NCBI GenBank assembly: GCA_030917925.1 | Contig: JAUPTV010000025.1 | Location: 1-35,276, forward strand | Origin: Pseudomonadota bacterium | GTDB lineage: Bacteria; Pseudomonadota; Gammaproteobacteria; Competibacterales; Competibacteraceae | Reading direction: 5' to 3' | DNA: 35,276 nt | In this document: positions 4,596-18,705 of the stretch, in pieces | How positions within the stretch are numbered: position 1 is the first letter of the stretch | How the letters are laid out: every line of letters begins with the position of its first letter | Translations under genes and position numbers: made by a program | The notes under the pieces: model-generated | Told to the model about the DNA's origin: nothing | Database searches by the model: none | What the model saw: the letters and a program-made list of their open reading frames with translations, nothing else

Positions 4596-6359
4596 ATGAA
4601 ATTTTTAAATATTTTAACTGGTCAAAATATCCGCATGGCATTCGTTTTTTTAAGTGTTTTTTTTATCACATTTTTTTGCTACCTTAGTACTCTTAATAAC
4701 GGTTTTGTTTGGGATGATATTTACTACATTCTCAAAAATAGAAATATTAATAATTTAGGTTTAGATAACATCAAATGGATGTTCACAAGCCTATATATGT
4801 CAAACTGGCATCCATTAACTTGGTTGTCAATGGCTTTAGATTACTTATTTTTTGGTCACAATCCATCGGGCTATCATCTGACCAATGTTATTCTTCACTC
4901 ATTAAACTCTGTACTTGTTTTGATATTGTCCGCAATTTTAATTAAAATAAATCAGAATCCTAAAGTTAGCATACCTCATTTAAATATTTTTTCAGACAAA
5001 AAGGTAATTTTGAGTAGCTGGATTGCTGCGTTATTATTTGGTATACATCCACAGCACGTTGAATCGGTTGCATGGATTAGCGAACGTAAAGATGTATTGT
5101 CTATGTTTTTCACAATTTTAACATTTTTAGCTTACATAATTTACGCAAGGGCTTTAAAAAATCGTACTATTTACTATGGTTTGAGTCTTCTATTTTTCAT
5201 GTTAGCTCTTATGGCTAAGCCAATGGCAGTAACAATCCCGGTCTTATTATTATTACTCGATGTTTATCCACTACAACGCACCAACTTAACTGCTCATTCT
5301 GCTAATAGTTTGCTCTATGTTAAATGGAGCATCCTTCTGTCAGAAAAATTGCCATTTTTTTTATTTTCTTTAGCTGTTGTTAGTTTAACTCTTATAGCAC
5401 AGACAGGGGCTATGGTAGATTTAGATCGCTACGGTCTAGGAGTCCGTCTTCTAAATGCATTCAACAGTGTGATTGTCTACATATCAAAATTTTTGTTTCC
5501 TATCAATTTACAGCCTTTTTATGGTCATCAAGTAAATGTGAATGACTTTGAAAGTTATGTGCCTTTAATCGCCTGTTTCTTAGCAACATTAATTCTTGTT
5601 TATTGGTGGTTCAAGAAAAATTATTATCTCTTGATCATCTGGCTCTTTTACCTCATTACATTGAGTCCAGTTATTGGAATTATCCAAGTTGGCTTACAAT
5701 CTTCGGCTGACCGCTATGCTTATTTGCCAACGCTTCCCTTCTACATTATTACGGGTGCATTTATTAGTTATCTAATTTATATCCCACAGCAAAAAATGAT
5801 TGCCAAAACAACTATCGTGACTTTTTTTCTCGTCGTTATTGCAATCTTGTTCTTTAAAACTCAGCAACAAATCACAATTTGGAAAAACGATTTGGTTTTT
5901 TGGAACTACGTTGTTCATATGAATCCAGAGAATGGCCGGGCACAATCTAATCTAGGGCGAATTGAATATTCTTCTGGAAATTATGAAAAAGCTATTGAAC
6001 ATTTTGGAATTGCACATTCAAAGAATGCGTTACTATTGGAAGATATGCTTTTTTGGGGTGAATCCCTTCTGAAGAATCAGCAACCAGAACTAGCATTAGC
6101 CGTTTATTCGGTCATTGTTAATACGCCAGTTAAGATTGACAAAAATAAAAAGAGCTGTATTTATTATACCATGGGCTGTATTTATCTACTAAACAAAAAG
6201 ATAACAGATGCAAAAATTTTATTCGAATCTGTTGAAATAAACACCCCATTTTATCAAAAAAAGCAGGAAATTTTATCATATATTAGCCAATTCGATAATT
6301 TTCAGATGACTCAAAATCTGCCTTCATGCCAGTTTTGCTTCGAAAATGATGAAAATTAA
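4596..6359 (+). CDS. Second GT-C-type membrane glycosyltransferase (AT-rich)
   Basis: This 587-residue protein is related to the product of 861-2723 and shares its landmarks in order: VWDD (D40-D41), SNWHPLTWLSMALD, HPQHVESVAWISERKD, MAKPMAV and SADRYAYLPTL. About ten hydrophobic segments are followed by a shorter and less regular TPR-like tail. The DNA is strikingly AT-rich compared with the genes before it, with many ATT, TTT, TTA and AAA codons. I take this as separate, more recent acquisition rather than a local duplication. It may transfer a polyprenyl-linked sugar to a protein in the periplasm. The next gene starts inside its last codons, so the two are probably translated together. Confidence 0.85.
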   Translation: MKFLNILTGQNIRMAFVFLSVFFITFFCYLSTLNNGFVWDDIYYILKNRNINNLGLDNIKWMFTSLYMSNWHPLTWLSMALDYLFFGHNPSGYHLTNVILHSLNSVLVLILSAILIKINQNPKVSIPHLNIFSDKKVILSSWIAALLFGIHPQHVESVAWISERKDVLSMFFTILTFLAYIIYARALKNRTIYYGLSLLFFMLALMAKPMAVTIPVLLLLLDVYPLQRTNLTAHSANSLLYVKWSILLSEKLPFFLFSLAVVSLTLIAQTGAMVDLDRYGLGVRLLNAFNSVIVYISKFLFPINLQPFYGHQVNVNDFESYVPLIACFLATLILVYWWFKKNYYLLIIWLFYLITLSPVIGIIQVGLQSSADRYAYLPTLPFYIITGAFISYLIYIPQQKMIAKTTIVTFFLVVIAILFFKTQQQITIWKNDLVFWNYVVHMNPENGRAQSNLGRIEYSSGNYEKAIEHFGIAHSKNALLLEDMLFWGESLLKNQQPELALAVYSVIVNTPVKIDKNKKSCIYYTMGCIYLLNKKITDAKILFESVEINTPFYQKKQEILSYISQFDNFQMTQNLPSCQFCFENDEN

Positions 6360-7588: not shown

Positions 7589-8008
7589 ATGAAGAAGCAA
7601 CAGGGCTGTACCTTGATCGAACTTATGATCGTCGTAGCCATTATCGGTATTCTGGCGGCCATTGCGATTCCGGCTTATCAGGATTACACGATCCGTGGGC
7701 AAGTCAGTGAAGGCTTAGTCCTATCAGGTGGCGCTAAGAATGCGGTGGCCGACACTTGGTCAAATCGTGGGGCTTTCCCAACTAGCAACGCTTCGGCCGG
7801 TATTACTGCTGCTGCTTCCATTAGCGGTTCCTACGTGACTTCAGTTACAATCGGGGTCGGCGGCGCAATTACCGCCGCTTACGGCAATAAGGCTAATAGG
7901 AAGATTACAAGCTCTATCGTACTTACCCCATCAGATGCCGGTGGTAGTGTGACGTGGAGGTGCACCTCTGGCTTGCCGGCTAAATATCTCCCGGCTGATT
8001 GCCGTTAA
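7589..8008 (+). CDS. pilA: Type IV major pilin PilA with cysteine at mature position 1
   Basis: A 139-residue prepilin. The leader MKKQQG is followed by the class III signal [18 protein letters not shown], with glutamate at mature position 5 (E11), cut after glycine by prepilin peptidase PilD. Mature position 1 is cysteine rather than the usual phenylalanine or methionine. Two C-terminal cysteines (C125, C138) should form the disulfide-bonded D-region. The middle is rich in Ser, Thr, Ala and Gly and offers many O-glycosylation candidates. A good ribosome binding site (GAGGAG) precedes the ATG. The gene is flanked by a sigma-54 promoter and a strong terminator, so it is probably monocistronic. 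Subunits assemble into the pilus fibre. Confidence 0.93.
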
Positions 8009-8176: not shown

Positions 8177-10081
8177 ATGATTGCAAAACTACGCTCGGCG
8201 CTTCCTGGACTCGGATTTTGGCTATTGCTAATGGCTATCTACGGGTTATACCTGCCCGGCCAGCAGGGCGCATTGCATTTCGACGATGAAATCAATCTGC
8301 GGGGACTTAGCCAAGTACAAACCGGTGGATCGGCGCTGATTTTCGTGACCAGCGGTGAAGCCGGCGATCTTTCCCGCCCCATTGCCTTAGCCAGTTTCCT
8401 GCTCAATATCGGCGACTGGCCCCAGAATCCCCAAGGGTTTCTGTATATCAATATCCTCATTCACTTACTCAATGGCGCACTACTGGCCTGGTTAGTCCTG
8501 CGTTTAATTCGCTTAATCCGCCCCGAACTGGCCCAGCGCACCGAATGGATTGCATTCAGCACTGCGGGGTTGTGGCTGCTGTCGCCACTACTCGTTTCAA
8601 CTTCCCTGATCATCATCCAGCGCATGGCTAGTCTGTGCGCGACCTTTATGCTGGCTGGCCTGCTGACCTATCTGATCGGCTTATCCTGGGAGGCGGCAGG
8701 TCGCGTTATCAAAGGCCGCTGCCTGCAAGCGGTGGGCATCGGGTTAGGTACTTTGCTCGCCGTATTAAGTAAGGAAAATGGCGTCTTGCTGTCCTTGTAC
8801 GCGTTGATTCTCGAAGTCACCGTGCTGGCTGGCGTGGGCACACTCGCGGCCTGGCGGCGCTGGCGAATGATACTGCTGGCCTTACCTCCCTTAGCCTTGC
8901 TGATCTATATTGCTGACCGTTTGTCGCCCGCTGCCTTCGCCGCCCGCGACTTTACCCTGACCGAACGCCTGCTGACCCAGCCGATTATTCTCTGGGATTA
9001 TTTGCGCCTAGCCCTTCTCCCACAAACCTTTGCCTTTACCCCTTTTCACGACGATTACCCGATTGCACATGGACTTCTGGATCCCCCCATCGCCTTGCTG
9101 GCTATTGCCGCTTGGCTGATTGTGTTCGTGTGGGCGGTATGGCAACGTCGGCGCTGGCCTTGGTTTGCATTAGCCGTATTTTGGTATCTCGGCGGCCATG
9201 CTCTGGAGTCATCAGTATTGCCGCTGGAATTGTACTTTGAGCATCGCAACTACATGCCGCTGATAGGTTCGATGATGGCATTGGCCTGGCTGGCGTGGAC
9301 AGCGACCGGAACCTGGCGACGGATTGCGCCCGCTCTTTTAGCCGCTTACGCACTGATGCTGGCGGTTGTCTTGTGGCAAACCACCAGTCTGTGGGGACAA
9401 CAGCTATTGGCCGGGGAAATTTGGGCGATCCATCATCCGGCCTCGCCGCGCGCTCAACAATTCCTGGCGCAGCGTTATGTGCTGATTGGTGAACAGAACA
9501 CGGCGTACAAGGTGCTGTCGCACGCCGCCAGGGACAACCCCGCACGGATTGATCTGGCGATACAAGCGTTACAATTGGCTTGTGATGCCGGGCGTGAAAC
9601 CGAGGTGAATGAGGACTATGCCCGTGCCGCCAGCCGGTTAGCCACAGGCGTCTTCGGCAACGCTGCGCTCAGTGCGCTCTCCATATTGATTGACCTGCGC
9701 GAGCAGCAGCGGTGCGCGTCTCTGAGCAACCAGGATATGCACCGGATGCTGGATGACCTGCTGAACAATCCCAAGTATCAAGCGGCTCATGCGCGTCATC
9801 ATCTGCATCACATGAAAGCGCGTCTTTATCGCCAGGAGAAAGACCTGGACCGTACCGTGCACCATCTCGATGCCGCTTTTCGGGCAAAACCCGAGATTGG
9901 GACAGCGCTGATCACCATCGGCACTTTTTTAAGCGCTGGCTTACACCAAGAAGCGCTGACCTATCTGACTACTGTTCGCCAGCAGGCTCCGGCCAATCCA
10001 GTGTTACGGTCACAGTGGATGACGTTGCTGGATCAGCTTGAAGAACAGATACCCAGCCTGACGCCTTCCCCTGCACCGTGA
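8177..10081 (+). CDS. Third GT-C-like membrane protein, next to pilA
   Basis: The 634-residue polytopic protein has an acidic cluster FDDE (35-38) after the first helix, then SLIIIQRMASLCATFM, SKENGVLLSLYA and LYFEHRNYMPL. These echo the acidic pair, ERK, AKP and DRYAYLP landmarks of the two GT-C proteins upstream, but they are more diverged. Membrane segments end near residue 410. The remaining 220 residues are soluble and helical, with weak TPR character. Its place directly after pilA recalls pilin-specific glycosyltransferases such as TfpO and TfpW, which sit beside pilA in pseudomonads, although it does not look like TfpO in sequence. Modification of PilA is inferred from position. The next gene starts 15 bases after its stop. 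Confidence 0.72.
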   Translation: MIAKLRSALPGLGFWLLLMAIYGLYLPGQQGALHFDDEINLRGLSQVQTGGSALIFVTSGEAGDLSRPIALASFLLNIGDWPQNPQGFLYINILIHLLNGALLAWLVLRLIRLIRPELAQRTEWIAFSTAGLWLLSPLLVSTSLIIIQRMASLCATFMLAGLLTYLIGLSWEAAGRVIKGRCLQAVGIGLGTLLAVLSKENGVLLSLYALILEVTVLAGVGTLAAWRRWRMILLALPPLALLIYIADRLSPAAFAARDFTLTERLLTQPIILWDYLRLALLPQTFAFTPFHDDYPIAHGLLDPPIALLAIAAWLIVFVWAVWQRRRWPWFALAVFWYLGGHALESSVLPLELYFEHRNYMPLIGSMMALAWLAWTATGTWRRIAPALLAAYALMLAVVLWQTTSLWGQQLLAGEIWAIHHPASPRAQQFLAQRYVLIGEQNTAYKVLSHAARDNPARIDLAIQALQLACDAGRETEVNEDYARAASRLATGVFGNAALSALSILIDLREQQRCASLSNQDMHRMLDDLLNNPKYQAAHARHHLHHMKARLYRQEKDLDRTVHHLDAAFRAKPEIGTALITIGTFLSAGLHQEALTYLTTVRQQAPANPVLRSQWMTLLDQLEEQIPSLTPSPAP

Positions 10082-17042: not shown

Positions 17043-18668
17043 TCAACCCAGCAGACTAAGAACTTGGCGGGACGTCGTATTCGCCTGCGCCAGCATACTC
17101 TGGCTGGCCTGTTGCAGAATCTGGCGACGCGCCAGCTCGCCGGTTTCATGGGCGAAGTCGGCATCCAGAATCCGCGAGCGGGCATCGGAGGTCGTTTCGA
17201 TATTGATAGCGTTGACGTTGATCAGGTGCCCGAGCCGGTTGATGGCGGCACCTACCCCGCCGCGCTGTTCGTTGAGATAGGTTAGCGCCAGATCAACCTT
17301 GTCAATAACCGTGTTGGGGTCGGTCGCCACATTGATGCTGGCCAGGCCCAGTGCGTTCACCGTTGTCGCACCGATACTGATATTAAGACGGTCGCCATTA
17401 TTTTCACCGACTTGAAGACCAAAGGAATTATAGGTCACGGTCTGGTCGAAGCCGCCCGGCCACGTTTCCTCAAATCCGGACAAGGGGTCGTAGGTGTAGC
17501 CGCCGGTGTCGGGGATGACGGATGTTGCGGTGAGCACCGAACCATCGTCCGCATCCGCACCACCTATCGCGCCGGTGTCGTCATTGTCGAAGTAACCACC
17601 ATCCCATAGAGCCTGTACATAACTTTCTCCCGCTGCGCTCTTGTAGGTATTCAGAAAATCGGTTGCATTGGTAAACCCGGTAGTTGCCGCCAGCGCCTCA
17701 TCAAAAGTGGCACCATCCTTGAGTTGAGTCATGATGCTTTTAATGCCGCCAGTGGTCTGCTCGTGCAGGAAACGCACCGCGACATAGGCGCTGGAGTATT
17801 CCAGGCTGGTGGACGGTTGGACGGTGGGTGCCGCATTCACCAATGCGCTGGCGGTGGTGAAATCAGCGGCAACGCGGTCATCCGCGCCGTGAATGAATTC
17901 CGCTGTGCCTTCGATAAACCACCAGGGCATGCTGCCGAGGTCCATGTTGTCCTCCATGACGGCATGGACCATTTCATGGGCAATGACCCGGTCAGCGGAA
18001 AACCCGCCCAAGGTATCCGGAGCAGTAAAATCCAGCATATCCACGCGCAACTCCATCGTACCGTTATTTGGGGTAATGGACGCCGCATAGCCGCCCACCG
18101 CATCTTCCTCCAGCATAATCTCGAAGGGAGTGTCCCCCTTGCCGGTCAGGCCATACCAGGTTTCAATCCGGCTTTCGGATTCCCGCAACCAGGAACCGCG
18201 CAGGCCATTAATCACCGTTTGCTCATCGGCGGTGCCACTCCCCAGGCTGCCGGTTCCGTCCATCAGCGACTGGCCATTGAATTTGGTGTCAATTGAAATG
18301 CGATTGATTTCCTGCATCAACTGATCGACCTCGCCCTGCATGGAACCGCGATCCGTGCCGCTGTAGGAATCGTTGGCGGATTGCACGGCGATTTCGCGGA
18401 TACGTTGCAGGACGTCGCCGATATTGCCTAAAGCGGAATCCGCCGTTTGCAGCAGGGAGATGCCATCATTGGCGTTGCGATGGACCTGGTTGAGGCTGCG
18501 AACACGTGCCGTCATGCGGTCGGCGATAGCTACCCCGGCTACATCGTCGGCGGCGCTGTTGATGCGGACGCCACTGGACAAGCGTTGCATCGCTTGACCG
18601 AGGTGTTGTTGCTGATTCGTTAAGCTACGATGAGCAAAAAGCGCCGACATATTAGTATTGATTTGCAT
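17043..18668 (-). CDS. Flagellin with inserted zinc metallopeptidase domain (flagellinolysin)
   Basis: This 541-residue protein has complete flagellin ends: an N-terminal D0/D1 region (1-140, MQINTNMSAL through NRISIDTKFNGQSL) and a C-terminal D1/D0 region (about 415-541, ending RQVLSLLG). Between them, where ordinary flagellins have a variable surface domain, lies a gluzincin-type peptidase domain of about 250 residues. It carries HEMVH at 231-235 (zinc ligands H231 and H235, catalytic E232) and EGTAEF at 253-258, whose E253 is the likely third ligand. Flagellinolysins with a related domain form filaments with proteolytic surfaces. All expected catalytic residues are present, so activity is plausible. 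A sigma-28 promoter and a GGGAGAG ribosome binding site precede it. No other flagellar gene is in the window. Confidence 0.93.
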   Translation of the reverse strand: MQINTNMSALFAHRSLTNQQQHLGQAMQRLSSGVRINSAADDVAGVAIADRMTARVRSLNQVHRNANDGISLLQTADSALGNIGDVLQRIREIAVQSANDSYSGTDRGSMQGEVDQLMQEINRISIDTKFNGQSLMDGTGSLGSGTADEQTVINGLRGSWLRESESRIETWYGLTGKGDTPFEIMLEEDAVGGYAASITPNNGTMELRVDMLDFTAPDTLGGFSADRVIAHEMVHAVMEDNMDLGSMPWWFIEGTAEFIHGADDRVAADFTTASALVNAAPTVQPSTSLEYSSAYVAVRFLHEQTTGGIKSIMTQLKDGATFDEALAATTGFTNATDFLNTYKSAAGESYVQALWDGGYFDNDDTGAIGGADADDGSVLTATSVIPDTGGYTYDPLSGFEETWPGGFDQTVTYNSFGLQVGENNGDRLNISIGATTVNALGLASINVATDPNTVIDKVDLALTYLNEQRGGVGAAINRLGHLINVNAINIETTSDARSRILDADFAHETGELARRQILQQASQSMLAQANTTSRQVLSLLG

Positions 18669-18705
18669 GGCTGCTCTCCCATTTTTATTAGTCCATCAAA
18701 CACGC

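Follow-up and report, generated by a model that had tools for sequence, protein, structure and literature searches.

A flagellinolysin gene in a Competibacteraceae genome and relatives of its protease domain in other protein contexts

Introduction

What is the function of a flagellin whose two polymerising ends enclose a domain with the motifs of a zinc protease? The question is raised by the gene at positions 17043 to 18668 (reverse strand) of a 35,276-nucleotide stretch of DNA, hereafter the window, which is contig JAUPTV010000025.1 of a Competibacteraceae assembly (GCA_030917925.1). Flagellins of this design, the flagellinolysins, were described as a family in 2017 (Eckhard et al. 2017). 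Two members have been characterised (PMC7643111), and experimental precedents come from Clostridium haemolyticum (PMC5595980) and Hylemonella gracilis (PMC7643111). The 2017 paper proposed that whole genes, as well as the domain by itself, had moved laterally, and left the donor of the protease insertion undetermined (PMC5595980).

Results

The gene encodes a flagellinolysin with complete flagellin ends

The open reading frame (17043..18668, reverse strand, stop codon included) starts with ATG, encodes 541 amino acids and is preceded by GGGAGA (18675..18680, reverse strand), a probable ribosome-binding site read from the sequence. In a Pfam search, Flagellin_N matched residues 3-139 (profile positions 1-137 of 139, E 2.9e-42) and Flagellin_C matched residues 455-540 (positions 1-86 of 86, E 6e-18). 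Because both matches are near full length, both flagellin ends are complete, as the first-pass annotation of this DNA had claimed. The NCBIfam flagellinolysin model NF033876 scored 351.1 bits against a cut-off of 205 (E 9.9e-105) and was matched over positions 2-382 of 384. The assignment to the flagellinolysin family made in that annotation thus holds, and the product is a further, well-preserved member of a known family. A degenerate or broken gene was considered as well, and is ruled out by the open frame, the complete ends and the intact motifs.

The borders of the inserted domain were drawn by comparison with a conventional flagellin, FliC, encoded on another contig of the same genome (C132). 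In this FliC the D1 stretch NGKNLIDGS almost directly abuts the beta-hairpin KFQVGANANQTISISAG, and the protease sits exactly at the corresponding D1/beta-hairpin junction, between NGQSLMDGT and FGLQVGENNGDRLNISIG. The cassette therefore stands ahead of the beta-hairpin; in the conventional flagellin, the variable region comes after this hairpin. The product accordingly divides into an N-terminal D0/D1 shell (residues 1-139; 18252..18668, reverse strand), an inserted gluzincin-type protease cassette (residues 140-415; 17424..18251, reverse strand), and the D1 beta-hairpin with the C-terminal shell (residues 416-541 and stop codon; 17043..17423, reverse strand).

Predicted catalytic residues are conserved in the aligned family members

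Two motifs lie where the first-pass annotation had placed them. HEMVH (residues 231-235; 17964..17978, reverse strand) is predicted from alignment and a PDB profile search to supply two zinc ligands and the general base, and EGTAEF (residues 253-258; 17895..17912, reverse strand), on the same grounds, the third ligand, E253, together with a conserved alanine, A256. The hallmark of the family, HExxH with a distal glutamate and a conserved alanine in the hypervariable region, is hence present as H231, E232, H235, E253 and A256. Tyr291 (17796..17798, reverse strand) is the probable catalytic tyrosine, paired by alignment with Y315 of lugdulysin. The claim that all catalytic residues are kept was borne out: H231, E232, H235, E253 and Y291 are shared by all 12 sequences of alignment A1, the present product among them (A1 leaves out the 1092-aa L063 and the fragment L067). 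These residues stay invariant in 15 of 15 once three phage-tail domains, described below, join the alignment. In L012, a relative from the same genus, serine replaces the conserved alanine (EGASE).

A PDB search with the insert profile found lugdulysin (entry 7bb8) at E 0.0017, and collagenases G and H at weaker values (E 0.063 to 0.34). In the alignment with collagenase G, both HExxH and a WFxEGxAEF stretch coincide. In lugdulysin, a distance of 73 separates the residues aligned with E232 and Y291, and this is the E242/Y315 spacing in the title of PDB entry 7bb9; from this title we infer that E242 and Y315 are the catalytic glutamate and tyrosine of lugdulysin.

The insert resembles a gluzincin fold in a medium-confidence model

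A full-length model, built from two sequences (the present product and its Thiospirillum relative L036), reached a pLDDT of 40.5 and was set aside. Modelled from five sequences (alignment A4), the insert gave medium confidence (pLDDT 70.0, pTM 0.74), with helices at 86-102 (carrying HExxH) and 110-119 (carrying the third ligand) in insert numbering. The putative zinc ligands thus lie on the two expected helices. Aligned with VIA-align, this model resembled collagenase G (Z 11.5), lugdulysin (11.3) and collagenase H (11.0) most closely; the best eight rows (Z 10.7-11.5) were all either lugdulysin or peptidase domains of the clostridial collagenases G, H and T, and M1 aminopeptidases came next. 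Best Z values of 7-8 are typical where there is no clear match, so that values of about 11 exceed that level and are not decisive. Foldseek searches with the insert model returned nothing at E ≤ 0.001, either against the PDB (best E 0.016) or against BFVD (best 1.7e-3). The likeness of the model (Z 10.7-11.5), read with the caveat of the best Foldseek E of 0.016, supports a gluzincin-like fold, and the zinc-dependent gluzincin layout that had been proposed for the insert agrees with its eight best structural matches.

The comparison with M9-type collagenases stands in part. Collagenase G is among the closest structures, but the relation is distant: the score for Peptidase M9 (PF01752) was 19.7 bits against a Pfam gathering score of 26, so that membership was rejected on this score, and lugdulysin, of family M30, is equally close. 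What the insert has in common with the clostridial collagenase peptidase domains and lugdulysin is the gluzincin fold with HExxH and, with collagenase G, the WFxEGxAEF stretch as well. Identity in the structural alignments is 11-14%, and neither kind of protease is borne on a flagellin.

A sigma-28-like promoter precedes the gene

The sigma-28 consensus is TAAAGTTT-N11-GCCGATAA. A site that begins 64 nt ahead of the ATG, at 18732-18706 on the reverse strand, reads TCAAGTCT-N11-GCCGATGA and agrees with this consensus at 13 of 16 positions. On both strands of the window, with spacers of 10-12 allowed, no other site scores at least 13, and eight sites reach at least 12. A sigma-28-like site with a spacer of 11 lies upstream of all five genes tested, the present one and four close relatives, with 12-15 of 16 positions matched. 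The relatives score 12, 14, 12 and 15, of which the two scores of 12 are not rare, given the eight window sites at that level or above. Of the two conventional flagellin genes of the same genome with readable upstream sequence, one carries a sigma-28-like site (13/16) and one lacks it (best score 10). FliA is encoded in the genome (271.2 bits, cut-off 189.6), as are FlhA (874.4 bits, cut-off 772.1) and FliS. With FliA present and the site standing alone at its score, the proposal that the gene has its own sigma-28 promoter is supported. The gene neighbours an aldehyde dehydrogenase gene, MdoG/OpgG and a bestrophin-like gene; flagellar genes do not adjoin it in the window.

Two further loci were noted in passing. 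A second FlhA-like gene (L103, at 21959-23986 of contig C105 of the same genome) scores 647.5 bits, below the FlhA cut-off of 772.1, and we read it as part of a second flagellar or type III secretion system. Within the window, a type IV pilin-like gene (7589-8008) lies near three genes for large membrane proteins (861-2723, 4596-6359 and 8177-10081), some with TPR-like ends; judged from their translations, these genes perhaps form a pilin glycosylation locus.

The genome also encodes conventional flagellins

Flagellin_N matches five places in the genome: the gene described here, two on contig C132, one on C223 and one on C51, the last of which looks from its sequence like FlgL. C132 carries a complete conventional flagellin of 533 aa and the start of a second, and C223 starts inside a third. 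The fragments at the starts of C132 and C223, both broken at contig ends, are 94.4% identical in protein and 92.1% in DNA over their overlap; they are either two genes, as recent duplicates, or two variants, perhaps of different strains, of one. The number of conventional flagellin genes in the genome is consequently two or three, and a single gene exceeds the NF033876 cut-off. The search for a second, conventional flagellin suggested by the first-pass annotation was therefore successful, and its picture of a filament bearing protease copies in the thousands goes further than the data. Because the conventional genes are present alongside it, the flagellinolysin is probably a minority filament subunit. 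For C. haemolyticum, the authors put the share of flagellinolysin in the filament at up to 10% (PMC5595980).

A proposed mode of action and its alternatives

We consider it very probable that the gene encodes a flagellinolysin that is transcribed by FliA, exported, co-polymerised as a minority subunit and active as a surface zinc protease, its insert being a gluzincin-type zinc metalloprotease domain with conserved catalytic residues and predicted proteolytic activity. Under this model, sigma-28 (FliA) would transcribe the gene together with the late flagellar genes, and the protein would leave the cell via the flagellar secretion apparatus. Its intact D0/D1 ends would polymerise beside the conventional flagellins, and the insert would project from the filament surface and cut extracellular proteins. 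Zinc would be held by His231, His235 and Glu253, with Glu232 as general base and Tyr291 as probable transition-state stabiliser. By analogy with the characterised family members, the product may use zinc and calcium, be proteolytically active with broad specificity, co-polymerise and be exposed on the surface.

Three other explanations deserve to be weighed against this one. HExxH alone is short and frequent by chance, and the motif could on that account be an accident within an ordinary flagellin variable region. Such an accident has a negligible probability in our estimate, since the NF033876 match (E 9.9e-105), the full flagellin ends, the conservation of the motif with its surroundings and the gluzincin-like model together rule it out. 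Flagellin outer domains are often non-enzymatic, and the activity of the insert is a prediction, so a catalytically silent insert with an adhesive or structural role at the surface may also be imagined. We hold this to be highly improbable: the invariance of all five predicted catalytic residues in the 12 sequences is what selection for catalysis would be expected to produce, and proteolysis has been demonstrated for two relatives (PMC5595980, PMC7643111).

A protein that is exported but acts mainly as a secreted protease, as a released monomer or a shed insert and not as part of the filament, seems to us unlikely, though it has the better claim among the alternatives. The H. gracilis authors consider that the protein might be exported by the flagellar secretion system and that the insert might be shed (PMC7643111), and the gene described here does not adjoin flagellar genes in the window. 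Against this, both of its polymerising ends are complete, and the C. haemolyticum flagellinolysin occurs in the filament (PMC5595980). Co-polymerisation into the filament remains the explanation that we prefer.

Comparison with known flagellinolysins

FliA(H) of C. haemolyticum, an organism of a different phylum, shares with the present product the flagellin ends around a gluzincin insert, the HExxH, the distal glutamate and the conserved alanine three residues after it, and co-occurrence in one cell with a conventional flagellin (PMC5595980). It differs in the distance from the second histidine to the third ligand, 25 residues (His237-Glu262) against 18 here, and in that its gene lies inside a flagellar cluster (PMC7643111), whereas the gene described here lies outside one. 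HgrFlaMP of H. gracilis comes from a Gram-negative organism, is equal in layout and is encoded outside a flagellar cluster (PMC7643111). Its neighbours, a NUDIX hydrolase and a MarR regulator (PMC7643111), differ from those in the window. The closest relative found among named genomes is that of Thiospirillum jenense DSM 216 (L036:6001-7623), which has 541 aa, 73% identity over the full length, equal motif spacing and a sigma-28-like site of 15/16.

Flagellinolysins are patchily distributed

In the taxonomic family, the NF033876 cut-off was exceeded in 4 of 39 genomes, so that the distribution there is patchy; the corresponding counts were 5 of 370 in a sample of the class and 6 of 398 in one of the phylum (samples that overlap), each including the genome described here, and 5 of 398 for Bacillota. 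Among the six phylum matches, L066 is not a flagellin and L067 is a fragment. L067 lies beside transposase-like reading frames and, judging from these, was apparently cut by an insertion element. A motif search over 23 loci had found the insert in L036 alone; it missed L012, with its EGASE, which was found later. Adding the taxonomic family to the range of flagellinolysins, with at least four genes in 39 genomes, is of modest value in itself, and T. jenense DSM 216 offers, in a named strain, a close relative for testing the idea.

The window has the arrangement opgG, aldehyde dehydrogenase, flagellinolysin in common with G014, a genome of another genus of the same family (80%, 84% and 63% protein identity). 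No flank gene of the window was found next to the flagellinolysin gene of G034, a same-genus genome, or next to that of Thiospirillum, and the contig of G037 is too short to tell. A plasmid search matched 192 records; none covered at least 80% of the query, and the best 15 of the 192 covered 26-51%.

Shell and protease core may differ in ancestry

Over the shell, identity to the same-genus relative in G037 is 85.6% (residues 1-139) and 85.5% (residues 411-541), against 71% to Thiospirillum. Over residues 140-410 the order is reversed, with 64.1% for G037 and 75.2% for Thiospirillum. Across the same-genus relatives, shell identities are 79-86%, above that of Thiospirillum, and protease identities 60-64%, below it. 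In a 22-row tree of the protease core, built without L067 and without the permuted L085, L086 and L088-L090, the present product joins Thiospirillum (100/96). In a 22-row shell tree it groups with three relatives of its taxonomic family, with Thiospirillum outside (89/98); of 10 further conventional-flagellin loci tried for this tree beside the C132 FliC, a sequence pattern recovered 3. Nine-row trees gave an equal conflict between shell and core (support 90/92 and 92/96). In AU tests, the shell did not reject a pairing of the present product with Thiospirillum (p 0.097), nor did the core reject its placement in the three-relative clade (p 0.099). GC3 is 0.655, 0.672 and 0.652 in the N-terminal shell, protease and C-terminal shell, with no compositional signal of a foreign cassette. 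These comparisons are suggestive of a mosaic gene, with a shell like that of its own genus and a Thiospirillum-like protease core, and do not establish it.

The protease domain occurs outside ordinary flagellinolysins

A search of viral contigs with the family alignment returned four loci, three of which have the protease domain and lack flagellin ends. Each of these three (L068:47-2188, L070:823-2925 and L071:2756-4834) encodes a protein of 692-713 aa with the protease as its C-terminal part; the N-terminal part gave matches to phrog_1887, 'tail protein', at E 9.5e-33 to 1.4e-41. They score 197.3, 190.9 and 184.1 bits against NF033876, just below the cut-off of 205, and all three retain HExxH, the third glutamate and the tyrosine. 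In the 22-row protease tree the phage-tail domains form one clade, whose placement among the flagellin-borne domains the tree does not settle. A second viral scan with a phage domain as query returned the identical three contigs. Neither the L068 domain (E limit 1e-5) nor the window insert (E limit 1e-3) matched any of 50,697 INPHARED phage records, which tells against common phage carriage, and there were no tail-fused copies among the matches (E ≤ 1e-20) in 398 sampled Bacillota genomes. The word 'phage' is absent from both PMC5595980 and PMC7643111, and 'permut' from PMC5595980.

Cellular genomes hold further arrangements. L066:1279-2454 encodes a free-standing protein with the protease domain (238.7 bits against NF033876), without flagellin ends or any Pfam match; it is not beside obvious flagellar genes. 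L063:520-3795 encodes a 1092-aa flagellin (203.8 bits) in which the protease follows the D1 beta-hairpin instead of preceding it. In four Bacillota flagellins (L086, L088, L089 and L090, from genomes G1104, G815, G1125 and G1147) DTG[AS]I precedes HExxH, the reverse of the usual order. Circular permutation is shown by crossed BLAST segments for L086, L088 and L090 and suggested by motif order for L089, and L085 is probably permuted likewise.

The mosaic and these arrangements could be joined in a single account, in which a travelling cassette was exchanged with the Thiospirillum type within a lineage-specific shell and was placed separately in flagellins (at two sites, in normal or permuted order), in a free-standing protein and at phage tail C-termini. 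We put this account forward tentatively and regard it as rather doubtful. If it were true, phage tails would be among the carriers by which the protease domain spread, or the setting in which it first arose. The phage-tail, free-standing and permuted relatives are concrete sequences with which to ask how enzyme cassettes move between extracellular fibres, and these by-products may matter more than the new family member itself. On one Bacillota contig, the permuted L088 and L083, which has the ordinary order, adjoin.
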